DNA of 64,000 bases from Lysobacterales bacterium. Lineage in GTDB: Bacteria; Pseudomonadota; Gammaproteobacteria; Xanthomonadales; Wenzhouxiangellaceae. Both the position numbers and the translations under genes were made by a program. Each line of letters starts with the position of its first letter. The stretch's first letter is position 1. Shown here piece by piece: positions 6,199 to 60,512 of the stretch. The notes beneath the pieces are model-generated. The model searched no databases. It saw nothing but the letters and a program-made list of their open reading frames with translations, and was not told the origin of the DNA. The stretch covers positions 29,919 through 93,918 of the forward strand of contig PBLG01000017.1 in assembly GCA_002722315.1 (NCBI GenBank), written 5' to 3'.

Positions 6199-6199
6199 A

Positions 6200-6619: not shown

Positions 6620-6658
6620 TGTATCTTCAGCAGCGGTTCCGAAACTCTGAACAATGCA

Positions 6659-6958
6659 ATGTGGGTTGACCTTCTCATCTCGGCGCCCGTGACGCTGTTC
6701 CTGCTATGGCTGTACTGGTATTCCGCGCCGGACAGCGCACCGGGCTGGTCGCGGCTTCTGGATCGCATCGCCTTGCTGATCTCGCCGCTGGCGGTGATCG
6801 TGATCATTGCGGTCGGTCATGCGTGGATCGAGTATCCGGGCATGGGCTTGAACGTGATGCTGGTGGCCGCGGCGTACGTCACGCTGATCTTCGTCCTCGG
6901 ACTGGGATGGATGCAGCGTGCGCTGGCCGTTCGCGGCAATTCGGGCGTCGATTCCTGA
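6659..6958 (+). CDS. Small three-helix membrane protein of unknown function
   Basis: 99 residues with three hydrophobic segments, roughly 5-22, 38-56 and 64-82, separated by short polar loops. The middle loop has a HAWIEYPG segment. No family is recognised. It starts 39 bases after crcB2 on the same strand and may belong to that transcript. Function unknown. Confidence 0.6.
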   Translation: MWVDLLISAPVTLFLLWLYWYSAPDSAPGWSRLLDRIALLISPLAVIVIIAVGHAWIEYPGMGLNVMLVAAAYVTLIFVLGLGWMQRALAVRGNSGVDS

Positions 6959-7050
6959 CCCCGGCGTTCCCTGCATCGCGTGCCACGGGCAAGCACCGCC
7001 CGCGGCGAAAACTTTTCCGGCAGTAGCAAGACACTGGAGCAGCAACACCG

Positions 7051-9813: not shown

Positions 9814-9859
9814 GCCGTCGTGACCTGGCCGGCGGCGTCGTTTCGCCGACCCGGCTCCA

Positions 9860-11758
9860 TTACCAGCCGCCGCCCCCGCCACCCCCGCCGCCACCGCCGG
9901 ACGAGCCGCCACCGCCGCCGCCCGAAGACGAGCCCGGCGGCGAGGCCGAGCCGGAAATGCCACTGGACAGCCCGCCGGCCAGCGCGCTGGATATTGCCGC
10001 GCCGCTGAACCCCTTGCCGGTCGTCATGGACGGGCTGTACCAGCTGCGAGACCGGATCGAACCGTCGATCTCGGCCCGGCGAATGGCATCCTCGAAGCGC
10101 TTCGCCCAGGTCTCGGCGCTGTCCAGGGCGATGGCGTACGGCAGCAGACGCTCGAACTCCTCGAGCGTGACCGGCCGCTCCCCGCCGTGGCGGCGCTCGA
10201 TGTCCTCGCGCTCGGCGATGTGCAGGTACAGCTGCAGGCCCTGGATCGCGTCAAGCAGCTCGCGGCCGCGTTCGGTCGGCGCTTTCATCAGCTGGTAGAA
10301 GGTCACGGTCAACACCAGGTGGGCGACCAGGATCAGCAGCGGAATCGCGCCGACCTGCCAGCCGAACACGCCCAGCACGGCAAGGCCGGCGATCACGAAC
10401 GGCACGATGAACAGCGAGGCGAACAGCAGCGGGATTATCGCCAGCCCTGTCGCCTGCCTCCAGCCCTTGACGAGGCCGGCGACGACGATGCTGACGAAGC
10501 CGTTCCATATCACGGCAAAAATTGCGAGAAACGGCGCCAGTCCGGGTTCCGGGGTCTTCGTCAGCAGCGTCATCAAGAGCACCGAGACGATCGCGATCAG
10601 CAGCCCCGGTATCCACCATTTGCGGTTGTGCCTGAAGTAGTGCGATTCCATCTTCGATCGCAGCGCTTTTTCGTGCGCCTTGACCGCCTTGCCGACACGG
10701 GCGTGCCTGGATTGCTCGAACGTCAGTTCGTCGCCGCCGGCGAACAGCGCCTTGAACAGCGCGCGTTCGGTCCTCGAGGTCGGCTCGCCTTCGCCGCGCC
10801 TGACCACGTAGTGCTTCCCGGGCTTGTCGAGCTTCACGTGGCCCGGCACCGCCATGTGGACCAGCGCCGCGGCGGTCGCGGTCTTGTCGTAGCCGAATTT
10901 CAGCACGTAGCGCAGCATGCCGGGCGAGTAGCCTTCCGGCGCCTCGTAGCGCGGGTAGATCGCGCCGGGCAGCGGATCGCGGCCGACCCGATTCCATGCC
11001 CAGGCCTGCCAGCCGATCACCGCGAGCAGGCCGATCAGCCCGACGATCGCGCCGCGGTTGTCGGCCATCATCCGGCGGCCGAGTTCGATTGCGGTCGGTT
11101 CGGGCACCAGCCCCTTCGGAAACCCGACCGCGACGGTCAGGCCTTCGTAGGGTTGCAGCGTCCTGCGGCTTTCGAACACCACCGAGTTCCGGTTCGGCAC
11201 GTTGGCGGTCCACTCGCTGCCCTGCGCGCCGGCCTCGCCAAGGTAGGCATCGATGCGCAGCGCGTGGCGGTCCACGTCGCCCGGCAGCCGCACGGTGGCC
11301 TCGACGGCGTCGATCGGAAACGCCCAGTCGTTGCCGGTGACGTTCCAGTAAAGCTCGTCGTGGGTTTCGAAATGGCCGAGCTGGCGATCCGTCGTGTATT
11401 CGATCCGGTAGCTGTAGTTGCCCGGCTCGAGAAAGGTGTTGGCGTCTCCTATATACAGGCGGGTGCCGCCGGTCACGCCCTCGGTATGCCAGGGCTCGCG
11501 CTGCCCGTCGCGCGTCACGGTCACCACGTCGAAGGGCACCGTGACCCGGTTGCCCAGCGCGTCGCGGTAGACGGTCGGGAAGTCGCGGTAGATGCCGCGG
11601 CGAATCTGCCTGCCTTCGGCGCGAACGTCGATGGTCTCTGCCACGAACAGGCTGCCGTCGGGCTGGATCGTGATCTCCGAGGCAAAGCGTCCGATGCGTT
11701 CGTCGGCGACTGAGACGCCGGCGAGCAGGATCATCAGCGTCGCGAGCAGCGTCTTCAT
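9860..11758 (-). CDS. DUF2207 membrane protein with Gly-rich C-terminus
   Basis: 632 residues. It has a cleavable signal peptide (MKTLLATLMILLAGVSVADE), an N-terminal extracytoplasmic beta-rich DUF2207 domain (GRFASEITIQPDGSLFVAETI, RRGIYRDFPTVY), a membrane helix near 235, two or three more hydrophobic helices around 390-490, and a C-terminal tail of Gly/Ser ending in a run of glycines and Trp. This is the common DUF2207 architecture, which is regularly paired with LemA, as here (overlap of 4 bases with lemA). Function unknown; envelope-associated. Confidence 0.85.
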   Translation of the reverse strand: MKTLLATLMILLAGVSVADERIGRFASEITIQPDGSLFVAETIDVRAEGRQIRRGIYRDFPTVYRDALGNRVTVPFDVVTVTRDGQREPWHTEGVTGGTRLYIGDANTFLEPGNYSYRIEYTTDRQLGHFETHDELYWNVTGNDWAFPIDAVEATVRLPGDVDRHALRIDAYLGEAGAQGSEWTANVPNRNSVVFESRRTLQPYEGLTVAVGFPKGLVPEPTAIELGRRMMADNRGAIVGLIGLLAVIGWQAWAWNRVGRDPLPGAIYPRYEAPEGYSPGMLRYVLKFGYDKTATAAALVHMAVPGHVKLDKPGKHYVVRRGEGEPTSRTERALFKALFAGGDELTFEQSRHARVGKAVKAHEKALRSKMESHYFRHNRKWWIPGLLIAIVSVLLMTLLTKTPEPGLAPFLAIFAVIWNGFVSIVVAGLVKGWRQATGLAIIPLLFASLFIVPFVIAGLAVLGVFGWQVGAIPLLILVAHLVLTVTFYQLMKAPTERGRELLDAIQGLQLYLHIAEREDIERRHGGERPVTLEEFERLLPYAIALDSAETWAKRFEDAIRRAEIDGSIRSRSWYSPSMTTGKGFSGAAISSALAGGLSSGISGSASPPGSSSGGGGGGSSGGGGGGGGGGGW

Positions 11759-46962: not shown

Positions 46963-48081
46963 GTGAGCGACAACAACCCCCAGAAACCCGACCTGGCCGC
47001 CATCCGCAAGCGCATCGACGCGCTGGACGCCGAGATCCAGCGGCTGATCGGCGAGCGCGCGCAGCTGGCGCTGGACGTGAGAAACAGCAAGGGCGCATTG
47101 GAAGGCGGCGCCGAGTACTACCGCCCCGAACGCGAGGCCCAGGTGCTGCGCCAGGTCATTGCGCGCAACGAAGGGCCGCTGAGCGATTCGGTGATGCTGC
47201 GCCTGTTCCGCGAAATCATGTCGGCGTGCCTGGCCCAGCAGGAGCCGATGAAGATCGCCTACCTGGGTCCGGAAGGCACGTTCACCCAGCAGGCGGTCTA
47301 CCGCCAGTTCGGTCACTCGGTGCAGGCCATCGCCATGGGGTCCATCGAGGACGTGTTTTTGCAGGTGCAGGCCGGCGAGGTCGATTTCGGCGTGGTGCCG
47401 GTCGAAAATTCCTCGCAGGGCATGGTCAGCCACACGCTGGACATGTTCCTGAACGCCGAGGTGACCATCTGCGCCGAGGTCGAGCTTCGCATCCACCAGC
47501 ATCTGTTGACCCACGCCAGGTCGCTGGCCGAAATCGAGCGGGTCTACGCCCACGCCCAGTCGCTGGCCCAGTGCAAGCACTGGCTCAAGGCCAACCTCCC
47601 TGAGGCCGAACTGATCGGGGTTTCCAGCAACGCCGAGGCCGCGCGGCGGGTGCGCAGCTCGCCCGAATCGGCCGCGATTGCCGGCGCCCACGCCGCCGAG
47701 GTCTACGGCGTGCCGGTGCTGTTCGGCAACATTGAGGACCACGTCGACAACTCCACCCGCTTCCTGGTGCTCGGCAGAAAACTGCTCGAGCCGTCCGGCG
47801 ACGACAAGACCACGCTGCTGGTCGCCGGCTCCGACGGTCCCGGCGCGCTGTTCAAGCTGCTCGAGCCGCTGGCCCGGCACGGCGTCAACATGAACCGCAT
47901 CGAATCCCGCCCCAGCCGCCAGGGCCGCTGGGATTACGTGTTCTTCATCGACGTCGACGGCCACGTCTCCGAGGCCGGCCTGCGGGAGGCCATGGCCGAG
48001 CTGGAAGGGGAGGCGAGGATGGTCAAGGTGCTGGGGTCGTACCCCAGGGCGGTTCTCGGGAAATTGCCGGAAGCCGACTAG
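46963..48081 (+). CDS. pheA: Bifunctional chorismate mutase / prephenate dehydratase
   Basis: 372 residues. Chorismate mutase domain 1-95 (KRIDALDAEIQRLIGERAQLALDV), prephenate dehydratase domain from KIAYLGPEGTFTQQAVYRQFG with GVVPVENSSQGMVSHTLDMF and the catalytic Thr in DNSTRFLVLG, and a C-terminal ACT domain with ESRPSRQGRWDYVFFID (Phe-binding). GTG start because the N-terminal homology begins there; an in-frame ATG at 46924 lies in the repeat flank. No attenuator leader seen. Confidence 0.96.
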   Translation: MSDNNPQKPDLAAIRKRIDALDAEIQRLIGERAQLALDVRNSKGALEGGAEYYRPEREAQVLRQVIARNEGPLSDSVMLRLFREIMSACLAQQEPMKIAYLGPEGTFTQQAVYRQFGHSVQAIAMGSIEDVFLQVQAGEVDFGVVPVENSSQGMVSHTLDMFLNAEVTICAEVELRIHQHLLTHARSLAEIERVYAHAQSLAQCKHWLKANLPEAELIGVSSNAEAARRVRSSPESAAIAGAHAAEVYGVPVLFGNIEDHVDNSTRFLVLGRKLLEPSGDDKTTLLVAGSDGPGALFKLLEPLARHGVNMNRIESRPSRQGRWDYVFFIDVDGHVSEAGLREAMAELEGEARMVKVLGSYPRAVLGKLPEAD

Positions 48082-48145
48082 GAAACGCGGTTTCCGGGAA
48101 GGGTTTACGGTTGGACGGTCTACGCTTTACGTGGACGAGGTCGGT

Positions 48146-48190
48146 GGTTGTTGGTTGTTGGTTGTTGGTCGGAAGTCGGAAGTCGGAAGC
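48146..48190. repeat. Two heptamer arrays (GGTTGTT and CGGAAGT)
   Basis: GGTTGTT x3 at 48146-48166, then CGGAAGT x2 and CGGAAGC at 48170-48190. The second is the same class as the CGGAGGT array at 22343-22377. Confidence 0.8.
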
Positions 48191-48226
48191 TCCAATTCAT
48201 CATCGTCATCCCGGACGCGCGCAGCT

Positions 48227-48430
48227 GTGGGAGGCCCATCCTGGGCCGAAGATCAGTCCACCCATCGGGGGGAGACGCCCCTCCCACAAAAAACAGGATT
48301 CGCCCCGAAATCCGGCGGCAATCGCCACCCCATCGCGGCAAGGCCGGCTCCCACGCCCGTAGAAAGCCCACGCGTCGAATCCTGTTCCAGGACCTGCTCA
48401 CAGTCGTAGGAGCTTGCTCTGCAAGCGAAG
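48227..48430. repeat. Cluster of four REP-like hairpins
   Basis: (1) 48227: GTGGGAGG with hairpin GGCCCA-TCC-TGGGCC. (2) near 48265-48287, other strand: GTGGGAGGGGCGTCTCCCC. (3) near 48327-48354, other strand: GTGGGAGCCGGCCTTGCCG, stem CGGC/GCCG. (4) near 48407-48426: GTAGGAG, stem CTTGC-TCT-GCAAG. Stems differ but pair within themselves. They occupy the 377-base gap between pheA and trmL. Confidence 0.8.
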
Positions 48431-48458
48431 CTTTTCCGTAAACCGTAAACCATCTTAT

Positions 48459-48935
48459 TCACCCAAACCCAAGCTGCCGCCACGCCTCGTAGAACACCAC
48501 CGCCGCCGCGTTCGACCGGTTCAGGCTCCTGGCCGCGTCGCGCTGCGGAATCTTCACCCGGTCCTCGACGGCAAACCGCGCCAGCACCTCGTCCGGCAAT
48601 CCCCGGGTCTCCGGGCCGAACAGCAGCACGTCGTCGGGCCGGTATTCGATCCGATCGTAGCGCGTGCTCCCGGAAGTCTCCACGACCAGCCAGCGGCGCG
48701 GGCCCAGGGCCTCGATCGCGGCGTCCAGGTCGTCGTGGATCTCGAACGCTTGGCGCTCGTAGTGGTCCAGCCCGGCCCGCCTCAGGCGCCGGTCGTCCAG
48801 CGCGAAACCCAGCGGGCGGACCAGGTGCAGCCGGCTGCCGACATTGGCGCACAGGCGGATCAGGTTGCCGGTATTGGGCGGAATTTCGGGCTGAAACAGC
48901 ACGATTTCGGGCCGCTCTGATAATGTGACGGACAT
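48459..48935 (-). CDS. trmL: tRNA (cytidine(34)-2'-O)-methyltransferase
   Basis: 158-residue SPOUT-fold enzyme that 2'-O-methylates the wobble base of tRNA-Leu. IVLFQPEIPPNTGNLIRLCAN, LLFGPETRGLPDEVLARF and KIPQRDAARSLNRSNAAAVVFYEAWRQ are the three SPOUT knot motifs. ATG at 48935 gives the normal length. Divergent from nrdJ. Confidence 0.95.
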   Translation of the reverse strand: MSVTLSERPEIVLFQPEIPPNTGNLIRLCANVGSRLHLVRPLGFALDDRRLRRAGLDHYERQAFEIHDDLDAAIEALGPRRWLVVETSGSTRYDRIEYRPDDVLLFGPETRGLPDEVLARFAVEDRVKIPQRDAARSLNRSNAAAVVFYEAWRQLGFG

Positions 48936-49000
48936 CAAAAATATTTCGCTCGCAAGTCTTGAAAGTGACGCCGAAACTGCGTACAGTTCCACCTCAAGGG

Positions 49001-49016
49001 GCACAAGATATTGTGT
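49001..49016 (+). promoter_or_regulatory. NrdR box 1 upstream of nrdJ
   Basis: GCACAAGATATTGTGT, two differences from the NrdR palindrome ACACAATATATTGTGT (as I recall the consensus). It lies 111 bases before the nrdJ ATG and 32 bases upstream of box 2. Confidence 0.8.
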
Positions 49017-49032
49017 ACAGAAATTGACCACA

Positions 49033-49048
49033 ACACAAGCAATTGTGG
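49033..49048 (+). promoter_or_regulatory. NrdR box 2 upstream of nrdJ
   Basis: ACACAAGCAATTGTGG, weaker palindrome in the same phase. The 32-base centre-to-centre spacing (about three helical turns) is the spacing NrdR tandem sites normally show. Confidence 0.7.
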
Positions 49049-49126
49049 ACAAGTCGGTCAACAAGCTGTGGATAAGGCCGGAATAACACCGGGTAGACGA
49101 ATCAAATCAATAATGTAGGAGCGGGC

Positions 49127-51271
49127 ATGAGCGTATCGGCCGAGGCACTGAATTCCGCGCTTCCGGAGATCGAGTTCCAGGAAGCGTCCATGGACATCTG
49201 GGACAAGAAATATCGACTTAAATCAAAGAGTGGCGAGGTCGTCGACGAGACGATCGACGACACCTACAAGCGCGTGGCCCGGGCACTGGCCGACGCGGAA
49301 AAGGGTACCGATGCACGCGAGCACTGGTACCGCGAATTCCTGTGGGCGCTGCGTCGCGGGGTCATCCCGGCCGGGCGGATCACGTCCAATGCCGGCGCGC
49401 AGGCATACAAGCCGGCCACCTCGACGATCAACTGCACCGTGTCGGGCACCATCGGCGACTCGATGAACGACATCCTCGGCAAGGTGCACGAAGCAGGCCT
49501 CACGCTCAAGGCCGGCTGCGGCATCGGCTACGAATTCTCGACGCTGAGGCCCAAGGGCGCGTACGTATCCGGCGCCGGCGCCTATACCTCCGGCCCGCTG
49601 TCGTTCATGGACATCTACGACAAGATGTGCTTCACCGTCTCCTCGGCCGGTGGGCGGCGCGGCGCGCAGATGGCCACCTTCGACGTCTCGCATCCCGACG
49701 TGATGGATTTCATCCGCGCCAAGCGCGAGAACGGCGTACTGCGCCAGTTCAACTGCTCGCTGCTGATCACCGACGCGTTCATCGAAGCGGTCAGAAGCGA
49801 GTCCGACTGGCCGCTGGTGTTCCCGGTGCTGGAATCCGAGGCCGGCGACCTGGACCTGGAAGACCCGGAACAGGTGATCTGGCGCGAATGGCCGATCCAG
49901 TCCGGCTACGTCAGCAACGAGGAAGGCCTGGTGGCCTGCAGGATCTACAAGACCGTCCCGGCCAAGCGGCTGTGGAACATGATCATGTCGTCCACCTACG
50001 ATTTCGCAGAGCCGGGTTTCATCCTGGTCGACCGGATCAACGAGCAGAACAACAACTGGTGGACCGAGACCATCCGCGCCACCAACCCCTGCGGCGAGCA
50101 GCCGCTGCCGCCCTACGGCGCCTGCCTGCTCGGCTCGGTCAACCTGACCCGCTTCGTCGACAAGCCCTTCACCGAAGAGGCCAGCTTCAACTTCGACGAG
50201 TACCGCAAGGCGGTCAAGATCTTCACCCGCATGCTCGACAACGTGGTCGAAGTGAACGGTCTTCCGCTGGGCCAGCAGCGCCGCGAGATCGAATACAAGC
50301 GCCGCCACGGCATGGGCTTCCTGGGCCTGGGATCGACGCTGACGATGCTGCGCAAGAAGTACGGCCAGCCCGAGTCGCTGGAGTTCACCGAGAAGGTCAG
50401 CCGCGAAATGGCGGTGGCCGGCTGGGAAGCAGGTCTCGAGCTGGCGCAGGAAAAAGGCCCGGCGCCGATCATGGTCGACGAGTTCGAAGTCACCCCCGAG
50501 ATGCTGCGCAAGCGCCCGGAAATGGTCCGCGACGGCTACAAGCCCGGCGACCGCATTCCCGGCCGCGTGCTGCACGCGCGCTACAGCCGCTACATGCAGA
50601 AGGTGGCCGAGGTTGCGCCGGAGCTCGTGGACAAGCTCGCCGAGACCGGCGCGCGCTTCACCCACCACACCTCGATCGCGCCCACCGGCACGATCTCGCT
50701 GTCGCTGGCCAACAACGCATCCAACGGCATCGAGCCCAGCTTCGCGCATCACTACAACCGCAACGTGATCCGCGAGGGCAAGAAGAGCAAGGAAAAGGTC
50801 AGCGTGTACTCCTACGAGCTGCTGGCCTACAAGACGCTGGTCAACCCGAAGGCGATGCCGTTTTCCGAGGACCCGGAAGAACAGCTGCCGGACTACTTCC
50901 TGACCGCCGAGACGATCACGCCGAAAGAGCACGTCGCCATCCAGGCCGCGGCCCAGAAATGGATCGATTCATCCATCTCCAAGACCGCCAACGTGCCGAC
51001 GGACTACCCGTACGAGGACTTCAAGGACGTCTACCTCTACGCCTGGGAACAGGGCCTGAAAGGCTGCACCACCTTCCGCTTCAACCCGGAAGCCTTCCAG
51101 GGCGTACTGGTCACCGACAAGGACCTGGAGAACACCACGTACGTGTTCGAGCTGGAAGACGGGCAGACGATCGAGCTGAAGGGCGGAGAAGAGGTTGAGT
51201 ATGACGGGGAGACCCACACGGCCGCCAACCTCTTCGATGCATTGAAAGAAGGCTACTACGGCAAATTCTGA
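49127..51271 (+). CDS. nrdJ: Adenosylcobalamin-dependent ribonucleotide reductase, catalytic part (class II, NrdJa)
   Basis: 714 residues. Class II RNR, making deoxynucleotides without oxygen or iron. TSNAGAQAYKPATSTINCTVSG holds the first active-site Cys; GCGIGYEFSTLRPKGAYVSGAG and NPCGEQPLPPYGACLLGSVNL give the catalytic N-C-E motif; TGTISLSLANNASNGIEPSF is also conserved. The C-terminal part is on a separate gene, nrdJb. Controlled by NrdR boxes upstream. Needs vitamin B12; no cobalamin riboswitch was seen. Confidence 0.96.
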   Translation: MSVSAEALNSALPEIEFQEASMDIWDKKYRLKSKSGEVVDETIDDTYKRVARALADAEKGTDAREHWYREFLWALRRGVIPAGRITSNAGAQAYKPATSTINCTVSGTIGDSMNDILGKVHEAGLTLKAGCGIGYEFSTLRPKGAYVSGAGAYTSGPLSFMDIYDKMCFTVSSAGGRRGAQMATFDVSHPDVMDFIRAKRENGVLRQFNCSLLITDAFIEAVRSESDWPLVFPVLESEAGDLDLEDPEQVIWREWPIQSGYVSNEEGLVACRIYKTVPAKRLWNMIMSSTYDFAEPGFILVDRINEQNNNWWTETIRATNPCGEQPLPPYGACLLGSVNLTRFVDKPFTEEASFNFDEYRKAVKIFTRMLDNVVEVNGLPLGQQRREIEYKRRHGMGFLGLGSTLTMLRKKYGQPESLEFTEKVSREMAVAGWEAGLELAQEKGPAPIMVDEFEVTPEMLRKRPEMVRDGYKPGDRIPGRVLHARYSRYMQKVAEVAPELVDKLAETGARFTHHTSIAPTGTISLSLANNASNGIEPSFAHHYNRNVIREGKKSKEKVSVYSYELLAYKTLVNPKAMPFSEDPEEQLPDYFLTAETITPKEHVAIQAAAQKWIDSSISKTANVPTDYPYEDFKDVYLYAWEQGLKGCTTFRFNPEAFQGVLVTDKDLENTTYVFELEDGQTIELKGGEEVEYDGETHTAANLFDALKEGYYGKF

Positions 51272-51274
51272 TGG

Positions 51275-51400
51275 GGCTTCGCCAGGAACTCGTATGCTGC
51301 GTTTCGCGGCACACCGCGCATCCTCACGCACACAACACGTGCGCTCCGGTGTCGCGGTGCTTGCGAAGCCTTGCCTACGAGCCCCTGACTGTGCCCCAGT
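51275..51400. repeat. Palindromic repeat flanking nrdJb, left copy
   Basis: CTTCGCCAG...TATGC-GCGTTTCGCGGC, CCTCACGCAC, TGTGCGCTCCGG and TGCGAAGCCTTGCCTA are shared with 52329-52452 in the same orientation. Non-coding. The 282-base gap between nrdJ and nrdJb also has a CCCGGCC-type hairpin near 51430. Confidence 0.7.
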
Positions 51401-51553
51401 GCGTAGCGGGTTCGGTAAAACCCGTCGTCCCGGCCCCCGAGCCGGGACCCAGCGACTTTCCCGTAGCCCGGGTAAGCGAAGCGCACCCGGGGAACCAACG
51501 AACCAACGAACCAATTAACTGACGCACCAGATCTGGGGTAGGAGAAAAGGAAC

Positions 51554-52330
51554 ATGGCAGTGAACATCGACAAGAAAATCGTGGGCTACCAGGTCAAGGA
51601 CAAGGCCAAGGGCGAGATCAAGGAAGCTGGCGGCACGGCGGCCAAGCCCGAGGCGGGCGGCAAGAAGAAGGCCGACATCATCCGCATGCACGAAAAGGTC
51701 GAGCGGCCCGAGGGCATGGAATGCCTGGAAGGCGCGACCTACAAGATCCGCACGCCGCTGGACGATCATGCCTTGTACGTGACGATAAACGACATCGTCC
51801 TGAATTCCGGCACCGAGCACGAAGTGCGCCGGCCGTTCGAGATCTTCATCAACTCCAAGAACATGGACCACTTCCAGTGGATCGTCGCGCTCACCCGCGT
51901 CATGTCCGCGGTGTTCCGCAAGGGCGGCGACGTCACCTTCCTGTCCGAGGAACTCCAGGCGGTGTTCGACCCCAAGGGCGGCTACTTCAAGCCCGGCGGA
52001 CGGTTCGTCCCGTCGATCGTCGCCGATATCGGCGCGGTCATCGAGCACCACTTCAAGCGCATCGGCCTGCTCGAGCCCGACGAGCTTTCCGAGCAGCAGC
52101 AGCTGATGCTCAAAGAAAAGCGCGCCGAGTTCGAAGCGCGCGAAGCCGGCATCTCGACCCAGCCCGAGCAGATGCCCGAAAAAAAAACGATGAATGAAGC
52201 GGCGGGCGAGGCCGAGGATACGGGCTACCCGGCGGCGGCTTCGCTTTGTTTCAAGTGCAATACGAAGGCGATGGTTTTGCTGGATGGGTGTCAGACTTGT
52301 CTTGCATGCGGCTATTCAAAGTGCGGATAG
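51554..52330 (+). CDS. nrdJb: Ribonucleotide reductase small-chain NrdJb (C-terminal TSCPD-type part of class II RNR)
   Basis: 258 residues. This corresponds to the C-terminal portion of class II RNR that is a separate gene in Pseudomonas (nrdJa/nrdJb). Core DHALYVTINDIVLNSGTEHE, then PFEIFINSKNMDHFQWIVALTR (TSCPD-type fold), and a C-terminal CFKCNTKAMVLLDGCQTC-LACGYSKCG tail whose Cys pairs resemble a zinc site and the redox-active Cys pair that reduces the reductase. It should work with nrdJ; a 282-base gap with a repeat separates them. Confidence 0.9.
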   Translation: MAVNIDKKIVGYQVKDKAKGEIKEAGGTAAKPEAGGKKKADIIRMHEKVERPEGMECLEGATYKIRTPLDDHALYVTINDIVLNSGTEHEVRRPFEIFINSKNMDHFQWIVALTRVMSAVFRKGGDVTFLSEELQAVFDPKGGYFKPGGRFVPSIVADIGAVIEHHFKRIGLLEPDELSEQQQLMLKEKRAEFEAREAGISTQPEQMPEKKTMNEAAGEAEDTGYPAAASLCFKCNTKAMVLLDGCQTCLACGYSKCG

Positions 52331-52452
52331 CGGCTTCGCCAGTCACTCATATGCGGCGTTTCGCGGCGCCGCGTGCTTCCTCACGCACTTGATGTGCGCT
52401 CCGGAGTCACGTGACTTGCGAAGCCTTGCCTATGAGCGGCTGGCTGTGCCGC
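52329..52452. repeat. Palindromic repeat flanking nrdJb, right copy
   Basis: Same element as 51275-51400, direct orientation: GGCTTCGCCAG, CATATGCGGCGTTTCGCGGC, CCTCACGCAC, TGTGCGCTCCGG, TTGCGAAGCCTTGCCTATGA. It begins at the nrdJb stop and ends 45 bases before the restriction gene. Confidence 0.7.
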
Positions 52453-52496
52453 TGCAGTTCAGGATTTCGTCATTCTCCAGGGATGGTTTGGGATAA

Positions 52497-53222
52497 ATGT
52501 TCGAGCGCTTGACTGAAAACGGCTTTGAGATTGTCACTCTTCACCATGCGGAGGCAATTCTTTCCCAGGATATGCCGGAGGCAGTCACGGAACTGGATTC
52601 GGTGCTCGCTAATATCACGTTGCCGATTGAGGAAATCATTCGTGGTGGCGGCGGAGAAGGAAAGCTCACTCAGCGGATTCGGCGCGCGCTGGCCGAATTT
52701 GGCTGGATCAAGCACAATTTCGAGATAAAGAAGACCGTCGACGGCGTAGAAAAGGAATCACTCTCCCATGAAATCGATCACGTTAAGAAGTTCGGGGACT
52801 GGACGTTCGCGCTTGAAATTGAATGGAACAATAAAGATCCGTTTTTTGACCGGGATTTGGAAAATTTCAAGCGGCTTCACGCTGACGGCGTCATTTCGGT
52901 CGGCGCAATCGTGACAAGAGGGTCCTCGTTGCAGGGGGCATTGCGGGAATATGTAGCTAAATTTTCTCGCGACTCGGGATTCTCAGGAATTGAGAATCTT
53001 GGCGAATACTATAGCCCTACTGAACGACAGACCAAGAATATTCAGCGAGCTATCGAGTCAGCTGGAGATTTTCACACTGGATGGGCGAATGCCTTTGTTG
53101 CAGACAAGTTCGGAGAAGCCACGACACACTGGCGAAAACTTGAAGATCGCGTCCATAGGGGCGTCGGTAATCCATGCCCACTCCTTTTGATCGGGATCCC
53201 AGCGCAAATAGTGACATTCTAA
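52497..53222 (+). CDS. Type II restriction endonuclease, BglII-like family
   Basis: 241 residues. ALEIEWNNKDPFFDRDLENFKRLHADGVISVGAIVTRG is the core of the BglII endonuclease family: catalytic acidic residues in LSHEIDHVK-KFGDW and LEIEW, followed by the DRDL helix. It should cut a palindromic DNA site and be protected by the adjacent methyltransferase (15-base gap). Base composition is lower-GC than the core genes, as expected for transferred restriction systems. Recognition sequence unknown. Confidence 0.8.
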   Translation: MFERLTENGFEIVTLHHAEAILSQDMPEAVTELDSVLANITLPIEEIIRGGGGEGKLTQRIRRALAEFGWIKHNFEIKKTVDGVEKESLSHEIDHVKKFGDWTFALEIEWNNKDPFFDRDLENFKRLHADGVISVGAIVTRGSSLQGALREYVAKFSRDSGFSGIENLGEYYSPTERQTKNIQRAIESAGDFHTGWANAFVADKFGEATTHWRKLEDRVHRGVGNPCPLLLIGIPAQIVTF

Positions 53223-53237
53223 GAGCGGGAAACAGCA

Positions 53238-53936
53238 ATGACCGGAAAAGTCTACAAGATAACAGAACCGAATCCATCGAAGGACCTGCTCGAAAAGATT
53301 CCGGGTGAATATTCGACGATTCTTGCCGACCCGCCGTGGCAGTTCCAGAACCGCACCGGAAAGGTTGCGCCGGAACACCGTAGGCTTCTTCGCTATCCGA
53401 CGATGGAGCTGAAGGAGATTATGGACTTGCCAGTCGCGCAACTTGCGGCGGCGTCCTCGCATCTTTACCTATGGGTGCCCAACGCGCTGCTGATGGAAGG
53501 TCTGCGGGTTATGGAGGCCTGGGGGTTTACCTACAAGACTAATCTAGTTTGGTACAAGGTGCGTAAGGATGGTGGGCCTGATGGGCGTGGAGTCGGCTTC
53601 TATTTTCGGAATGTGACCGAGCTTATTTTGTTTGGTGTGCGCGGAAGCATGCGGACCCTACCCCCCGGCCGGCGCCAGGTAAATCTGCTCTCAACGCGGA
53701 AGCGCGAGCATTCGAGGAAGCCGGACGAAATTTACGAGCTTATCGAATCCTGTTCCCCAGGGCCTTACCTAGAGCTTTTCGCACGCTTCACTCAGCCCGG
53801 TTGGTATCAGTGGGGTAACGAGGATGTAGAGGAGAATTCCTTGCATGGTGTTGCTAAAAGGCGGGCTCATACGGAGGGTCAATTGCGGCTTCTGGATTCG
53901 CCTAGAGGCTATCGGATTAACTCAAGGGAGCGGTAA
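53238..53936 (+). CDS. DNA adenine methyltransferase, MT-A70 family
   Basis: 232 residues. The catalytic DPPW motif at 31-34 (ILADPPWQFQNRTG) marks N6-adenine methyltransferases of the MT-A70/M.MunI group; SSHLYLWVPNALLMEGLRVMEAWGFTYKTNLVW is the following conserved region and EHSRKPDEIYELIESCSPGPYLELFAR the SAM-loop segment. It protects the cognate site of the preceding endonuclease. BglII itself uses an m4C methylase, so the pairing here is unlike the type system. Confidence 0.9.
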   Translation: MTGKVYKITEPNPSKDLLEKIPGEYSTILADPPWQFQNRTGKVAPEHRRLLRYPTMELKEIMDLPVAQLAAASSHLYLWVPNALLMEGLRVMEAWGFTYKTNLVWYKVRKDGGPDGRGVGFYFRNVTELILFGVRGSMRTLPPGRRQVNLLSTRKREHSRKPDEIYELIESCSPGPYLELFARFTQPGWYQWGNEDVEENSLHGVAKRRAHTEGQLRLLDSPRGYRINSRER

Positions 53937-54009
53937 TATCGTGATTTTAGCCATATTCCAATTTATATTCACATAGGTGGATTCGACGATTCGGGGCAGA
54001 GACAGAGCG

Positions 54010-55827
54010 ATGGATCAGATAACACTCTCGGAGCGAGCGAAAACGACTATTGGACTAGGAGAGAGTCATTTCCGCGAGTTCAAAAGCGGCGAAGATGGAC
54101 CCCCAGGGTATAAAACTCTTAGGAAGGCGAAAGCGGTTTGCGTTGACGTCGCGAGGACATTGGTTGCGTTTGCTAACGCTGATGGGGGCGAGTTACTCGT
54201 TGGGGTAGAAGATAATTGTCAAATCACCGGTCTGAATGAATTTTCTGAGACCGAACTTGATTTAATCGAAAAAGCTCCGCATACCCACGTTCATGCTGAT
54301 ACTCCTTTACAGAATCTCTCAGTAGCTCGGCTTGAGCTAGATGGGAAGCTGGTTATCTATTTTTCGATTGCCAAAAGCAATTCCTATGTCCACCATACGG
54401 CCGATGGTCGTTGTATTCAGCGACGAGATCTTGAGTCTGTACCGATATCAGCGCAGCAGATTAACATTGAACGTAGAGAAGTGCTATCCCAAGAATATGA
54501 CCGTGAATTTGTTGATGGGGCCCAAGTCTCTGATTTAAATCTTAATCTAGTTAAGATCGTTTCCGATCAGATTTCCTCAGGAATGTCGGCTGAGAAATGC
54601 CTTCAATACTTGAACTTGCTTGAGTACGACAGAATGGGGGTTCGGCTTCGGAGGGCTGCTCTTTTGCTATTTGCGAAGGTGCCAGAAAAGTGGCACCCCA
54701 GATTACAGCTTCGCGTAATGAAGGTCGAAGGTGTCGAGCTTCAATCAGGGTCGGAATATAACGTTAGTGCGGACGAAGTCGTTACCGGCAATATAATTGA
54801 TCTGCTTGAAAATGGCTGGGATGCGCTCAGGCCCTTCCTGGTGCAGCCTGTATTTGGCAGGAATGCAAAATTCGGTCAACGTGTTATGTATCCAGAACAC
54901 GCTTGCACGGAGGCTCTGGTCAATGCGATAGCTCACCGCGATTATTCGCAGGAAGGGCAAGGTATTGAGATCTATATCTATCAAGACCGAATGGAGGTTA
55001 GAAGCCCGGGAAGCTTGCTTTCTGTTATTCGCGTCGAGGATCTAATTGAGCAAAAAGGTGTGCATCATTCCCGGAATGGGCTAATTGCGAGGGTGCTGCG
55101 CGAATTAGGATACATGCGTGAGCTTGGAGAAGGTATTAGAAGAATCTTCGAGTTGATGAAGCGCAACGAACTTGCTGCCCCCAATCTTACGAATACGTCA
55201 TCTACATTCTCTGTTGAGCTCTTTCATCGACCCAGTTATTCAATGCGAGAGCGACTTTGGCTAGACCAGTTTTCAGATTTCGATCTGACTCGGGAAGAAA
55301 AAGTGATCGTTCTTCTAGGTCAAGGTGCGCAGCTAATTGCGCCCCAGGATATTTGGGATGCGTTAGGAATTGTAGATACAGAGCACTATCGGCAAGTTGT
55401 ATTTTCGCTTCAAGAGAAGGGAATCCTTGACAGCCAGCTGAATAAAAATAAGGCACAGAATATTGCTCGAAAGAAGCGGATCAGCGTGAGGAAGATCCCG
55501 AGGTTCGCGATTAGACTTCCATCTTCAATATCGCCAGTTCAAGAGCTTAGCTCATCGGACAGTTGCCGATCTGAAAGTTCATCGCGAAGACTGTGGGTTG
55601 GGAATCTGCCTTTTGATCTGGATGAGAATGATCTTATTGGCTTGTTGCAGGAATATGGTGACGTCGAATATTTTTCCGCCCCTAAGAGCAGCGGTGATAA
55701 GGGTAAGGGCTTTGCTTTCGTCGAGTTTGGAACGGATCAGGCCGCAGAGCAGTTACTAAACGATTCGAGAAAAATATCGCTGCGTGATCGCAGCTTGATT
55801 GTTCAATGGGCGACACCGAGAGCGTAG
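54010..55827 (+). CDS. AlbA_2/Schlafen-type ATP-binding protein with C-terminal RRM
   Basis: 605 residues from ATG 54010 (an in-frame GTG at 53977 would add 11). N-terminal AlbA_2 (Slfn) domain about 14-140: GLGESHFREFKSGED carries E18 and E23, and VAFANADGGELLVGVEDN the following Asp/Glu pair. Middle: a winged-helix and HATPase_c_4-type region, ACTEALVNAIAHRDYSQEG near 296. C-terminal RRM about 526-605: RNP2 LWVGNL and RNP1 KGFAFVEF. Slfn-like proteins of bacteria are often labelled transcriptional regulators; an RRM tail is unusual. It lies 73 bases after the methyltransferase on the same strand and is visibly AT-richer than core genes. Confidence 0.85.
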   Translation: MDQITLSERAKTTIGLGESHFREFKSGEDGPPGYKTLRKAKAVCVDVARTLVAFANADGGELLVGVEDNCQITGLNEFSETELDLIEKAPHTHVHADTPLQNLSVARLELDGKLVIYFSIAKSNSYVHHTADGRCIQRRDLESVPISAQQINIERREVLSQEYDREFVDGAQVSDLNLNLVKIVSDQISSGMSAEKCLQYLNLLEYDRMGVRLRRAALLLFAKVPEKWHPRLQLRVMKVEGVELQSGSEYNVSADEVVTGNIIDLLENGWDALRPFLVQPVFGRNAKFGQRVMYPEHACTEALVNAIAHRDYSQEGQGIEIYIYQDRMEVRSPGSLLSVIRVEDLIEQKGVHHSRNGLIARVLRELGYMRELGEGIRRIFELMKRNELAAPNLTNTSSTFSVELFHRPSYSMRERLWLDQFSDFDLTREEKVIVLLGQGAQLIAPQDIWDALGIVDTEHYRQVVFSLQEKGILDSQLNKNKAQNIARKKRISVRKIPRFAIRLPSSISPVQELSSSDSCRSESSSRRLWVGNLPFDLDENDLIGLLQEYGDVEYFSAPKSSGDKGKGFAFVEFGTDQAAEQLLNDSRKISLRDRSLIVQWATPRA

Positions 55828-55844
55828 CTTCGAATGATAACCTG

Positions 55845-56006
55845 GATATATCTTGACGCCTCCCGCCAGTCAAGCCTGATTCGGGGGTTTTTCCGCCTGG
55901 GAGAACTAACGGGGACATATATGGACGCCTCCCCCCAGTCAAGTCTGTTTTTTCGCTTTTCCGCTTGATCCGGGCCGAACGCGCCTGACTCCCGATTTCC
56001 GCGGGG
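55845..56006. repeat. Dispersed ~95-bp repeat, copy A plus a partial copy
   Basis: Full copy at about 55911-56006: GGGGACATATATGGACGCCT, then CAGTCAAGTC, TTTTTTCGC, GATCCGGGCCGAACGCG and CTGACTCCCGATTTCCGCGG. A decayed copy precedes it at 55845-55896 (GATATATCTTGACGCCTCCC). The 416-base gap between the Slfn-RRM gene and the transposase is otherwise a tandem repeat and unrecognised sequence. Confidence 0.75.
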
Positions 56007-56011
56007 AAAAT

Positions 56012-56075
56012 GGAACAAATTGGACAGGCACGTCTTAAAGGGCGGCGGAACAAATTGGACAGGCACGTCTTAAAG
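56012..56075. repeat. 35-base-period tandem pair (GGAACAAATTGGACAGGCAC)
   Basis: GGAACAAATTGGACAGGCAC-GTCTTAAAG occurs at 56012-56040 and again, identical, at 56047-56075. The GACAGGCAC core recurs inverted as GTGCCTGTCCC near 57397, on the other side of the transposase. Confidence 0.9.
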
Positions 56076-56243
56076 AGCTCGTCCAGGACAAATCTTGGCG
56101 AGCAGCCGTTCCGCCGTCAGGCGGGACGGGGCTTAAACGCCGGTTTCTGCTCGCTTAAGGTCGTTTTTCGGGTTTCGAACCGGATTCCGCGCACGCGAGA
56201 TCTGGCAGCGAGGCCATTTCGGGGCCAGCGGGGGATCTCTTGC

Positions 56244-57293
56244 TTATCGGCCGGGTGAGAACAGGGCGGCGGCTGCGGTCTGGCCTTTCAGGAAGGCTTT
56301 TTCGAAGTGCTCGGCGTATGCCTTGAGCTTGTCCAGCGCACCGAGCGCGTGGGCGAAGCCGAATCTCGGCTTCCTGATGTAGGCCAGGTAGTGTTCCGGG
56401 CGCATTTTCAGTCGCTTCAGGATGGGTGGCAGGTGCTCGGGGATCGAACCCTTCTTGCCCTCGACGATGGCACGGCCGGACCAGTCGACCAGTTCGAGGT
56501 AGTCGGCGGTGGAGTAGGGGATGGCATCTTGCGTGCGCTCGCTGGTGTCTTCCCAGAAGCCAAGCAACCTTACGATGTCGTCACTCAGATCGGGCTTGTC
56601 GGTCGACCTCTTCTCTGGTTCCTGGCGCTGCCCCGGCCCCGGCGTCTGCTTTTCCTGCCAGGCCGCGATTCTCTGCTGAATGGACGTGAAGTCTGAAGCC
56701 TCCGGCGTTTCGGCGATCCCGGCGCGGATCGGATTCAGATCAACGTAAGCCATGGCTGTCAGCACCGCGGCTTCATCCAGCAGCGCCTGACTGGTAAACC
56801 TTGATTGCCAGAAATGCCCGGTCACGTTGTCCTCGGCATTGGCCTGGCGAGCGATCGGTTCGTTGAGGCATTTCATGAACCACGACAGATCAGCAAGTCG
56901 CTTCCGGTACTCCGCGATGTGGTTTAGCGCAACCTGTCGCTGGGCCGGCCTGAGTTCCTGGCCGGCGACGAATGCGCGAACAACGGCCGGGCCGGTAAAC
57001 AGGCGCGTCCAGCGCCTTGCGACCTCCATTTCGTCCCATTCCAGCGCGCTCTGCTCATCGATCTGGAGCACCAGGTGATAGTGGTTCGACATGATCGCGT
57101 AGGCGCAAATATCGATAGCGAAGACCTCGGCCAGCAAGGCCAGCCGGTCCTGGATGTCCTTTTTTCGGGCCGAATAGTCCTTGCCGGTCAGCGGGTCCTT
57201 CCCGCACAGGAAATGCCGCCGAACGCAGCGGGCGATGACGTGATAGAACGGCGTGACCTCGGTGGACACCAGACGTTTACGGGCTTGTGGCAT
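56244..57293 (-). mobile_element. REP-associated tyrosine transposase (RAYT / Y1_Tnp family)
   Basis: 349 residues. HUH-type single-strand transposase: AYAIMSNHYHLVLQI holds the HxH motif (H71, H73). EYRKRLADLSWFMKCLNEPIARQAN with a candidate catalytic Tyr and GHFWQSRFTSQALLDEAAVLTAMAYVDLNPIRAG follow in the family order. Such proteins mobilise or maintain REP hairpins. Tandem and inverted GGACAGGCAC-type motifs flank the gene. No transposon ends were defined. Confidence 0.9.
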
Positions 57294-57570
57294 GGCAAAG
57301 CCTCAAAGGAATGATTTCCTACCAGCCTGGCCAGAGAGCGTTCAGAAGAAAATAGGAAAACAACCCGGATTCGCGTAGGTAAATTTCCTTTTCTGTGCCT
57401 GTCCCGACTTTTGGGCCGTCCTTGTGGGTGTTGGACCAATCCCATCCGGACCAATGCCAGGGAAGTGACGTGTAATGGACTGTTTCCACGTATGGGTATG
57501 GAATATATTCGAATTCCGGTTGTGGCTCAAGGCCGCGACCTTTCAACCACGGTCAATGGAGCAGTACGCA

Positions 57571-58749
57571 ATGACAACACGATTGATGCGAGTGATACTT
57601 GGTCTGAGCCTGCTGCTGGTCAGCTCCCAGACACTGGGACAGGCAATATTGCCGGGTTTCGACAGCCAGACGCTTCCGCGGAATGATGACGATTCCACCG
57701 ATCTGGTGTCCCTGGGATTCACGGTAAATTTCTTCGGGATCAACCGTTCGACGGTGTATGTGAACAACAACGGAAACCTGACGTTCGATCAGCCGCTGTT
57801 CGAGTTCACCCCGTTCGACCTCACGGCCACCTCGCGACAGATCATCGCGCCGTTTTTTGCCGATGTCGATACCAGTGAGGCGGGGCAGCCGGTCACCTAC
57901 GGAACCGGCACATTCGCCGGGCGGCCCGCGTTCGGTGTCAACTACATCGACGTGGACTATTTCGTCAGCAGCCCGGAGCACAATAACCGGAACAGTTTCC
58001 AAGTGATCCTGGTCGATCGCTCGGACGTCCAGGTCGGCGCCTTCGATATCGTTTTCAATTACGATCAGATCCAGTGGGAGACCGGCGAGGCGAGCGGAAG
58101 CGACGCCAACGGTCGCGGTGGGGCCTCGGCGCGGGTCGGGTATTCGAACGGAAGCGGCGACGCCGGAACGTTCTTCGAGCTGGTCGGTTCGGCAGTCAAC
58201 GGGGCGTTTCTCGACGGCGGGCCCAACGCGCTGGTCGGCAACCGGCTGAATTCGGGCGTGAATGGACGCTACATCTTCCAGGCCCGCGACGGGACCGTGA
58301 TCGCACCCAACCTGTTCAACGAAGCCGACGGACAGTGGGTCAACGCCGATCCCGATTTCCAGGGCGCGGGCGAGGGTTTGACGTTCGACTTCTTCCCCAG
58401 CCTGGAGTTGCTCTTCGTTGCCTGGTTTACCTATCCGCTGGAGGCGATCACGCCCGCACAGCCCGGCGGAGTGGTCGATGTGGGTGAACCCGGGCAACGG
58501 TGGCTGACTGCGCAGCTCGATGTCGTTGACAACATTGCCGTCGGTCCGGTGTTTTCCACCGCGGGCGGAGCGTTCGACGCACCGAGAACCGACGTCCAGA
58601 GGTCGGTGCAGGTTGGGGAAATGACCATAGAACTGAACAGTTGCGACAGCGGCAACGTGACCTACAATCTTTTCAACGGGGAGATTACCAGGACCTTCGA
58701 AATCATCCCGTTCGAAAAGCGGGTCAATCCGAACGTGGTCTGCAACTGA
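57571..58749 (+). CDS. Secreted protein with NIDO-like domain
   Basis: 392 residues. Signal peptide (RVILGLSLLLVSSQTLGQA). FTVNFFGINRSTVYVNNNGNLTF and IIAPFFADVDT, then VNYIDVDYFVSS, FQVILVDRSD and FDIVFNYDQIQWE, match the nidogen extracellular (NIDO) domain of adhesion proteins. The C-terminal half is unrecognised. ATG 57571 is preferred because GGAG lies 9 bases upstream. No C-terminal sorting tail. Probably extracellular. Confidence 0.8.
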   Translation: MTTRLMRVILGLSLLLVSSQTLGQAILPGFDSQTLPRNDDDSTDLVSLGFTVNFFGINRSTVYVNNNGNLTFDQPLFEFTPFDLTATSRQIIAPFFADVDTSEAGQPVTYGTGTFAGRPAFGVNYIDVDYFVSSPEHNNRNSFQVILVDRSDVQVGAFDIVFNYDQIQWETGEASGSDANGRGGASARVGYSNGSGDAGTFFELVGSAVNGAFLDGGPNALVGNRLNSGVNGRYIFQARDGTVIAPNLFNEADGQWVNADPDFQGAGEGLTFDFFPSLELLFVAWFTYPLEAITPAQPGGVVDVGEPGQRWLTAQLDVVDNIAVGPVFSTAGGAFDAPRTDVQRSVQVGEMTIELNSCDSGNVTYNLFNGEITRTFEIIPFEKRVNPNVVCN

Positions 58750-58810
58750 TGTACAGCGTTTTCGGAAGCAGGCAGCGACCGGAGCGCTGACGGTTCGCGA
58801 ATCCGGCTCT

Positions 58811-58837
58811 GTCGGGGTGCGAGTTTCGCACCCCGAC
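58811..58837 (+). terminator. Stable hairpin after the NIDO gene
   Basis: GTCGGGGTGCG/CGCACCCCGAC, 11 base pairs, 5-base loop. The tail GGTTTCAG is only weakly U-rich. Confidence 0.55.
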
Positions 58838-58870
58838 GGTTTCAGCCTTCGGACACCAGCGTAGAACCCG

Positions 58871-58968
58871 GAACAACGTGGACATATATGGGCCTCCCTC
58901 TGGTCAGGCCGGTTTTTCCGCTTGATCCGGGCCGAGCGCACGTGACTCACGATTTCCGGGAGGCCGCT
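58871..58968. repeat. Dispersed ~95-bp repeat, copy B
   Basis: GAACAACGTGGACATATATG, CCTC..TGGTCAGGCCGGTTTTT, GATCCGGGCCGAGCGCA, TGACTCACGATTTCCGGG. Same orientation as copy A. The 418-base gap up to the lipoprotein gene holds this and short GGGTGTCC motifs. Confidence 0.8.
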
Positions 58969-59041
58969 TGTCCAGATTGTCGAGATGAGAGAAGAGGGTC
59001 TGCTGACATATATCCGGGCTCTTCGTGGAGAATTCCTACGA

Positions 59042-59095
59042 GGTGGGTGTCCAGACCTGTGTCCTCCGAGTACAGGCCTCCGCCGGGTGTCCGAG
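59042..59095. repeat. Two GGGTGTCC motifs
   Basis: GGTGGGTGTCC at 59042-59052 and GGGTGTCCGAG at 59085-59095, related to the motifs at 60628-60889. Confidence 0.5.
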
Positions 59096-59167
59096 TTCTG
59101 GACACGCGCCGTTTGGGGTTTGCGGTATCATTATTCGTTGATTGATCTTGGCTGTAAGGATGTTTGT

Positions 59168-59767
59168 GTGAGGGCTGGAAATTTCTTTATTGTGATGCTG
59201 GTTGCCTGGCTGTCAGGCTGCGCAAGCATGAATCGTGTCGAGCAGTATGACTACCAATTTGATGGCGAGTCCGGTCAGCTGGCGCCGGTTCGCCTGTACA
59301 TCAATCGCGAGCAGGTAATGGGGTCTGTGCAGGGCGGCATGGTCAACGTGCTTTATCGGGAGATTCGCGCTACAGGAGCATTCTTCGGGGCTGGGTCATT
59401 TATGGAGACGCCCTGGGTAATCGATATCGAGCTGACGTGGTCGTCGAGCGGGGATGCCGGTTCGTTCATTGGCGCGATGGCTTCGGCGGCTTCGCTTGGG
59501 CTCGTTCCGTCGAAGCACGGCCAACACTACCGAGCCGAAGTCGGGATATATGAAAACGGTCTGCTGGTCGACCAGTTTACTGTCGAGGAAGAGTCGACAA
59601 TGGTTTTAAGTGCATACAATTACGCCGAGGCGGTCAGCGGCGAAACTCACGCGACGGCGATGAAGAACCTGGCGCTAAGGATCGTCGAGCAACTCGACCA
59701 GGCCGAAACGATTCCCCGAATCGAGTTATTGAGCGATCCTCCGGAACAGGACTCGATCAGCACTTGA
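59168..59767 (+). CDS. Lipoprotein of unknown function
   Basis: 199 residues. GTG start at 59168 follows AAGGA by 7 bases; signal peptide MRAGNFFIVMLVAWLSGC ends in a lipobox with Cys. The rest is a beta-rich domain (QLAPVRLYINREQVMGSVQGG; WVIDIELTWSSSGDAGSF) without recognised homology. An in-frame ATG at 58985 lies in repeat sequence and is rejected. Probably outer-membrane anchored. Confidence 0.75.
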   Translation: MRAGNFFIVMLVAWLSGCASMNRVEQYDYQFDGESGQLAPVRLYINREQVMGSVQGGMVNVLYREIRATGAFFGAGSFMETPWVIDIELTWSSSGDAGSFIGAMASAASLGLVPSKHGQHYRAEVGIYENGLLVDQFTVEEESTMVLSAYNYAEAVSGETHATAMKNLALRIVEQLDQAETIPRIELLSDPPEQDSIST

Positions 59768-59900
59768 CCCGCCTGACACTACGAGAAGTGTCTAGGCAAC
59801 GTCGCTAGAGCAACATGGAGATCCGCTCAAGGAATCTCTGAACAACTCCGCGCGGGCCGTTGCGCCGGCGCAGAGCTGTACACAGGTTTCCTGAATGGCT

Positions 59901-60512
59901 TCAGGTAATGGTGCTCGTGGCGTTGTTCGAAGACCGAGCCGAGGTTGCAGGTTGCGTGCCGACGTCGACCGAAGCGCCGCCGGCTGCGAGCAGTTCTTCG
60001 ATATAGCGGCGAATCGAGGGCGTGAGTTCACCCTTGGCGTAGATTTTCTGGACAAGCCGGCGCAGGTTATACGCATAGCGCAGCACCGGATCCAGCTTTC
60101 GCTTTTCGGCCTGCAGTTCCGAGCGAGTCTCGGCAAGCTGGGCCTGTGCGGTCTCGAGTTCGGCGCGGGTTGCTTCCAGGTTTTCCCGCATTGCGTCGAG
60201 TTCGGATTCGAGTTCGGCGTTCCGACTTGAACCTGTTTCCTCGGAGGCTGCGAATTTCGCCTTGAGCGCCTCCATGACCTGGGTCGGTTGCGTCTGCGGC
60301 TTCACTTCCGCCAGTTCGCCGACGCCGGAGAGGAGTTCTCGGTAACACTTCTCCAGTTGTCTCTGATCCGACCGCATTCGGTCGAATTTCGCGAGAAATG
60401 CCCTGGTATCTTCGGCGAAGGTCTCCGGATCCGGATAGCTCGAGCGTGTGTCGGTGGCAACGGATTCCAGCCAGCCGATGAACCTGCGATTGCGTGAATA
60501 ATCCTCGAACAT
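59901..60512 (-). CDS. Coiled-coil protein of unknown function
   Basis: 203 residues. No signal or membrane segment. A helical N-terminus (about 1-65), a short Gln/Pro linker, then about 60 residues of heptad-like coiled coil (ELESELDAMRENLEATRAEL, ETAQAQLAETRSELQAEKRK), then a helical tail. Possibly structural or regulatory; no family recognised. Monocistronic on the minus strand between secreted-protein genes. Confidence 0.7.
   Translation of the reverse strand: MFEDYSRNRRFIGWLESVATDTRSSYPDPETFAEDTRAFLAKFDRMRSDQRQLEKCYRELLSGVGELAEVKPQTQPTQVMEALKAKFAASEETGSSRNAELESELDAMRENLEATRAELETAQAQLAETRSELQAEKRKLDPVLRYAYNLRRLVQKIYAKGELTPSIRRYIEELLAAGGASVDVGTQPATSARSSNNATSTIT

Follow-up and report, generated by a model that had tools for sequence, protein, structure and literature searches.

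A Schlafen AlbA_2 protein with a C-terminal RRM beside a restriction-modification pair in a Lysobacterales genome: a predicted RNA-gated RNase

The stretch of DNA analysed here, 64,000 nucleotides of Lysobacterales bacterium contig PBLG01000017.1 (the window), contains a low-GC (guanine plus cytosine) islet with three plus-strand genes: a restriction endonuclease, an adenine methyltransferase and, starting 73 bases past the latter, a gene for a protein in which a Schlafen AlbA_2 domain, a HATPase_c_4 domain, a helical segment and an RRM follow one another (Table 1). We read this protein as a predicted RNase on the basis of its domains, an acidic triad that aligns with that of known Schlafen nucleases, the fold of the modelled AlbA domain, conserved RNA-stacking positions in the RRM, a sister branch with a cold-shock domain instead of an RRM, and the islet with its restriction-modification (R-M) pair. 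The open reading frame (ORF) begins with ATG; it also remains open from a GTG at 53977, 11 codons further upstream. The original prediction, made from the sequence alone, had placed an AlbA_2-RRM fusion at the correct coordinates; it named the domains at both ends, which exceed their curated Pfam cut-offs as does HATPase_c_4, and missed the HATPase and the helical segment in the middle.

Table 1. Features of the islet and of the Schlafen protein encoded in it (positions of the window).
Feature	Coordinates	Strand	Basis
Schlafen AlbA_2 - HATPase_c_4 - helical/winged-helix - RRM protein, 605 aa	54010..55827	+	Translation, Pfam, homologues, AlphaFold2 model
SLFN_AlbA_2 domain with E18, E23, D68, residues 18-146	54061..54447	+	Pfam E 3.9e-15
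HATPase_c_4, residues 316-404	54955..55221	+	Pfam E 1.6e-22
Helical segment, residues 405-505	55222..55524	+	Secondary structure of AlphaFold2 model; winged helix by inference
RRM_1, residues 528-594, RNP2 LWVGNL and RNP1 KGFAFVEF	55591..55791	+	Pfam E 1.5e-10
BglII/BstYI-type restriction endonuclease	52497..53222	+	Pfam Endonuc-BglII E 4.6e-25
MT-A70 adenine methyltransferase, presumably paired with the endonuclease	53238..53936	+	Pfam E 7.5e-31; PADLOC MTase_II E 2.9e-96
Low-GC islet holding endonuclease, methyltransferase and Schlafen gene	52490..55830	.	Composition profile

The SLFN_AlbA_2 match (PF04326) scores 56.9 bits against a cut-off of 25.3. The AlphaFold2 model of the whole protein has a mean predicted local distance difference test score (pLDDT) of 89.2 and a predicted template modelling score (pTM) of 0.73, with low confidence (pLDDT < 50) in residues 511-524, which link the helical segment to the RRM. 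Residues 405-505 have no Pfam match, and judging from the model they may form a winged helix. We collected 294 family members from two protein searches (the best 120 of 2641 matches to this protein, and the best 120 of 2296 matches to a relative, L022; labels of this form denote relatives' loci) together with 54 ORFs from genome loci; residue counts for the core come from 289 of these, five being left out. E301, N305 and H309, which sit directly N-terminal of the HATPase_c_4 match and which we take to be the N-box-like residues of the HATPase, are invariant in 289 of 289 relatives, as is E374. Database names among the relatives include RecG helicase, which we rule out, as even at E as high as 1 Pfam matches no helicase motor domain, and putative DNA binding domain-containing or ATP-binding protein; this suggests that the labels RecG helicase and ATP-binding protein are wrong for some of the proteins.

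The AlbA_2 domain contains the motifs ESxxxEFK (E18, E23) and LLVGVEDN (E67, D68), in which an E-E-D triad matching that of transfer RNA (tRNA)-cleaving Schlafens had been proposed, and the alignments bear this out. In a profile alignment with human SLFN14 (9nyy), E18 falls on chain residue 206 and E23 on 211, E211A being the mutant named in structure entries 9uie and 9jr9. D68 aligns with the second D of GVDD, and has a counterpart in the alignment with SLFN13 as well; by sequence alignment E18, E23 and D68 correspond to the three carboxylates of the nuclease Schlafens SLFN11, SLFN13 and SLFN14. Among relatives with a residue at the position, E18 is E in 286/286 and E23 in 285/286 (the single exception is V), and D68 is D in 285/289, the other four having N. 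The predicted retention of acidic residues is not a chance pattern and stands for the triad, with the correction that the position acidic without exception (289/289) is E67 and not D68. When the whole protein was used for a structure search, RRM matches crowded out all others; we then folded the AlbA domain on its own, and the resulting model matches the fold of the Schlafen catalytic lobe (SLFN13).

At the other end of the protein, the RRM has both RNP motifs, as had been noted, with their stacking aromatics. The stacking positions are aromatic or His in 39/40 (W529), 40/40 (F568) and 40/40 (F570) of the rows with a residue there, in a plain alignment that is free of the seed circularity described below. 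Mean pairwise identity of the RRM is 36%, versus 63-67% from AlbA to HATPase, with conservation highest in the core. This RRM_1 match is the only one in the genome. Database proteins of this architecture are not rare: in a search of 5.8 billion proteins, all three Pfam domains occur in 118 of the best 120 of 2641 matches, own record included.

With L022, a 651-residue relative from an Anaerolineales metagenome-assembled genome, as query, we recovered a sister group whose members have a cold-shock domain where the RRM would be; the Pfam cold-shock label is present on 33 of the best 120 of its 2296 matches, and L022's own match lies below the cut-off (18 versus 27 bits). According to our own profiles, the 294 members comprise 150 with an RRM, 90 with a cold-shock domain (89 from the L022 search set and L022 itself as a locus), 54 with neither and none with both, a ratio of RRM to cold-shock tails that is biased by the two queries. 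At genome loci, after omission of 14 of 67 as fragments or distant, the 54 ORFs at 53 loci divide into 25, 1 and 28, respectively. The RNP-type positions of the cold-shock tails are aromatic or His in 91-100%, partly by construction: the profiles were built from labelled members and both seed sets were cut around RNP1-like patterns, which makes the profile-based RNP1 columns partly circular. On a core tree of 79 rows, obtained by a quick method and with 23 of its 76 inner branches open, only one change between RRM and cold-shock domain is required, and nine if absence of both is taken as a third state. Repeated swapping of the two tails is not supported, a single change being enough. The strongest support for RNA binding by the tail is that two different RNA-binding folds sit in this one position, with the contact residues preserved in each; the cold-shock relatives suggest a tail that can be exchanged as an RNA-binding module.

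We also considered whether the short relatives receive their RNA-binding domain in trans. Among 55 loci checked, no RRM ORF was found near tail-less relatives and neither domain appeared to be supplied in this way; two cold-shock ORFs lie outside Schlafen genes, at distances of 1.65 kb in L024 and 4.5 kb in L016. Since 28 of the 54 ORFs are tail-less and no RRM ORF lies near them, the core is not dependent on a tail. Among individual loci, L046 encodes two core-only relatives of about 410 residues in tandem (7941-9221 and 9265-10503). At L042 (7911-9531) the core and the helical segment are spread over two overlapping ORFs, either a real split or a sequencing frameshift, and at L027 (5265-12262) a tail-less relative is found among ATPase-like ORFs and an HNH-like ORF, an arrangement that by eye is Septu-like.

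In 500-base windows the islet has a GC content of 46-56%, compared with 55-67% upstream and 53-64% downstream. The Schlafen protein is the only AlbA_2 match in its genome, which is judged 85% complete. No close copy of the gene is present in five other genomes of the genus and 19 of the family; 3 of 40 relatives searched have weak matches (26-29% identity over part of the core), and in a sample of 398 genomes of the phylum its own genome is the sole match at E 1e-60. From the low-GC islet and the absence of close copies in the sampled relatives, we infer that the gene arrived horizontally. None of 100 matching plasmid records and none of 27 matching phage records covers 80% of the protein (top rows, 27% identity over 73% and 31% over 58%, respectively), and 20,395 Escherichia coli records contain no blastn match to the gene. 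We found no Rfam match at gathering cut-offs in 48000-60000 and no tRNA gene in the window; a promoter scan gave no sigma-70-like site and is uninformative, with shuffles averaging 3.1.

Relatives of the endonuclease at about 55% identity occur on five plasmid records, and Rhizobium and Xanthomonas conjugative plasmids carry a related endonuclease-MT-A70 pair arranged tail to tail. The region immediately upstream of the islet (49127-52330) encodes the large chain of a ribonucleotide reductase and, separately, a TSCPD-domain protein. Downstream, a minus-strand Y1/IS200-like transposase ORF (56244-57293; Pfam E 1.4e-4, just below the cut-off) lies close to two copies, 97% identical, of a 32-nt direct repeat (56012-56078), which together may represent a repetitive extragenic palindrome (REP)-type arrangement.

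We examined the genomic neighborhoods of tailed relatives at 25 loci (24 with an RRM and one with a cold-shock domain, the broken L030 being outside the set). Defense genes could be placed within three genes at five of them: a C5 methyltransferase and Vsr (L003), a type IV enzyme (L005), NERD-UvrD (L007), DUF4297-HerA (L008) and HNH (L052). Neighbors vary from locus to locus, and one near member matching NsnA was left unplaced. The scan used 78 of 110 ORFs, the 32 omitted being mostly spurious-looking or very long, and the distal control used 132 of 133; near ORFs of at least 100 residues and distal ORFs of at least 150 make the sets unmatched, and neighbor ORFs were called by a longest-ORF rule that is poor in high-GC genomes. 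The PADLOC families seen were the best 25 of 100 near and 25 of 58 distal, for which reason we give no near/distal ratio. The association with defense genes is modest, and we claim association, not enrichment. On a contig from a viral collection (L069, intervals 1-1044 and 5995-7887), an RRM-tailed Schlafen gene accompanies a gene for Zot, a filamentous-phage assembly protein, as if the Schlafen gene were carried by a filamentous prophage.

Bacterial Schlafen RNases have already been linked to phage defense: PMC12839542 reports, for those with a minimal histidine kinase and a winged helix-turn-helix (wHTH), a linkage to BREX loci that extends over at least 1017 taxa. Our protein resembles them in having AlbA_2, then HATPase, then a helical segment that may be a wHTH, and differs in its added C-terminal RRM (a cold-shock domain in relatives) and in adjoining a type II R-M pair rather than BREX; where that paper's accessible text mentions an RRM, it concerns DUF499 ATPases and not Schlafens (PMC12839542). 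The protein has an AlbA-type catalytic-lobe fold and aligned carboxylates in common with the eukaryotic nucleases SLFN13, SLFN11 and SLFN14, its partner domains being HATPase and RRM instead of the helicase and SWADL of Schlafens (PMC5862951). TrlG of Photorhabdus, also annotated recG, likewise combines AlbA_2 with HATPase_c_4 and restricts growth in vivo at raised temperature; most tolerant clones were mutated in TrlG, and restriction returned when the operon was supplied in trans (PMC7554251). It differs in that its published Pfam map has neither an RRM nor a cold-shock tail, and in belonging to a three-gene operon induced by a temperature up-shift (PMC7554251).

More distant likenesses include the AlbA domain of SAMD9 (9o0d, the tRNase domain, and 7ksp), an animal antiviral protein with other partner domains, and DIP2311 of Corynebacterium diphtheriae (3lmm), uncharacterized in its entry, which aligns over model residues 22-408 only and not over the RRM. 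The PADLOC pAgo profile matches residues 43-407 of the core at its positions 53-437 of 1121 (E 9.2e-24). An N-terminal Schlafen AlbA_2 domain is described for some long Argonautes (PMC6299218); the Pfam scan of our protein gave no match to a PIWI domain. We found no description of an AlbA_2-RRM or AlbA_2-cold-shock architecture among the papers listed in the literature searched, a scope without preprints and most subscription journals. The link of bacterial Schlafens to phage defense is thus known already, and the RNA-binding tail, RRM or cold-shock, is apparently a new variation.

Taken together, we favor, with a probability of roughly 45%, the reading of this protein as a single-protein, RNA-gated antiphage RNase, deployed chiefly against phages. 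In this reading a trigger or a substrate RNA would be recognized by the RRM, the C-terminal module supplying RNA specificity, and the ATPase-like part would gate cleavage. In eukaryotic Schlafens two lobes make up the RNA cleft. As the present protein has a single lobe, its HATPase would, on binding ATP, bring two AlbA lobes together into a two-lobed cleft, for which a homodimer could supply the second lobe. The substrate would probably be tRNA, whose cleavage may halt translation and phage growth with an abortive outcome. Dimerization, RNA sensing or docking by the tail, the tRNA substrate and abortion are all predicted steps.

Several observations weigh against this. Pfam finds a single AlbA_2 domain rather than the two tandem lobes that form the RNA cleft of SLFN13. 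The triad is general to AlbA_2 and not peculiar to the RRM fusion: ten distant loci were examined, seven of which have a readable AlbA_2 ORF, and by eye the triad is present in six (L058, L060, L061, L066, L073, L074), the seventh (L072) having D instead of E23. Human SLFN5 retains the triad and is reported to bind tRNA without cleaving it (PMC8789055), so that the triad alone is insufficient proof of cutting. The RNA-targeting nuclease originally proposed is partly supported, by the triad, the catalytic-lobe fold and the RRM aromatics, and qualified by these last two points. More than half of the ORFs at genome loci (28/54) lack either tail. No defense gene was placed within three genes at 20 of the 25 loci (L018 lost all its neighbors in the scan), many relatives' genes are by eye flanked by housekeeping genes, and the distal control has PADLOC matches too (58 families over 132 proteins). 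Complementation of TrlG was achieved with the whole three-gene operon (PMC7554251). On both plasmids inspected the R-M pair has no annotated Schlafen gene within 4 kb, although the gene table is incomplete, and an obligate unit of R-M pair and Schlafen gene is accordingly unsupported.

Two other explanations are unlikely in our view and account for part of these observations. In the first, AlbA_2 would bind DNA or RNA without cutting and control neighboring genes, such as the R-M pair behind which the gene sits. This would agree with the DNA-binding names of some relatives, with the treatment of the Schlafen AlbA_2 domain as DNA-binding in PMC6299218 and with the behavior of SLFN5. Binding alone would not obviously need catalytic-type carboxylates that are almost unchanged in 289 relatives, however, and neighbors that differ between loci leave no constant target gene, the R-M pair itself being found elsewhere without an annotated Schlafen neighbor. 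In the second, which we hold to be just as improbable, the protein would be a housekeeping or stress RNase, or a ribosome-associated factor, that acts on cellular RNA at heat, cold or starvation, with a tail that recognizes stress-exposed RNA and no role in defense. Loci lying between housekeeping genes fit this explanation, as does the occurrence of RRM tails in one branch versus cold-shock tails in another, and the temperature-dependent restriction by TrlG, tail-less in its published map, supports it equally with defense (PMC7554251). The GC content of the islet and the absence of close copies in sampled relatives rather fit an accessory gene, and defense neighbors are present at five of 25 loci as well as in the window. 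That the RRM serves self-inhibition or localization, for example as a tether to ribosomes or mRNA, with the trigger sensed elsewhere, as in the HATPase or helical segment, is quite improbable: the many tail-less ORFs, the triad kept in 54/54 tail-less members and the conservation of the core would agree with it, but the RNA-stacking positions of the tail are retained.

The antiphage RNase reading could extend to the whole family, as bacterial one-protein RNA sensors in which a plug-in RRM or cold-shock tail on a Schlafen RNase would detect RNA that belongs to a phage or is exposed by it, and tRNA cutting, switched on by ATP-driven dimerization, would abort infection, a counterpart of the RNA-sensing antiviral Schlafens; we consider this broader proposal rather doubtful. 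Human Schlafens include antiviral tRNA-cutting enzymes and their bacterial relatives are tied to phage defense, while the accessible parts of the papers drawn on do not explain how bacterial Schlafens choose or sense RNA. With an RNA-binding tail built into the protein, the likely RNA-recognition step becomes visible as a detachable module, and the question of trigger and substrate may be approached through one small domain, or through natural members that have an RRM versus a cold-shock domain.
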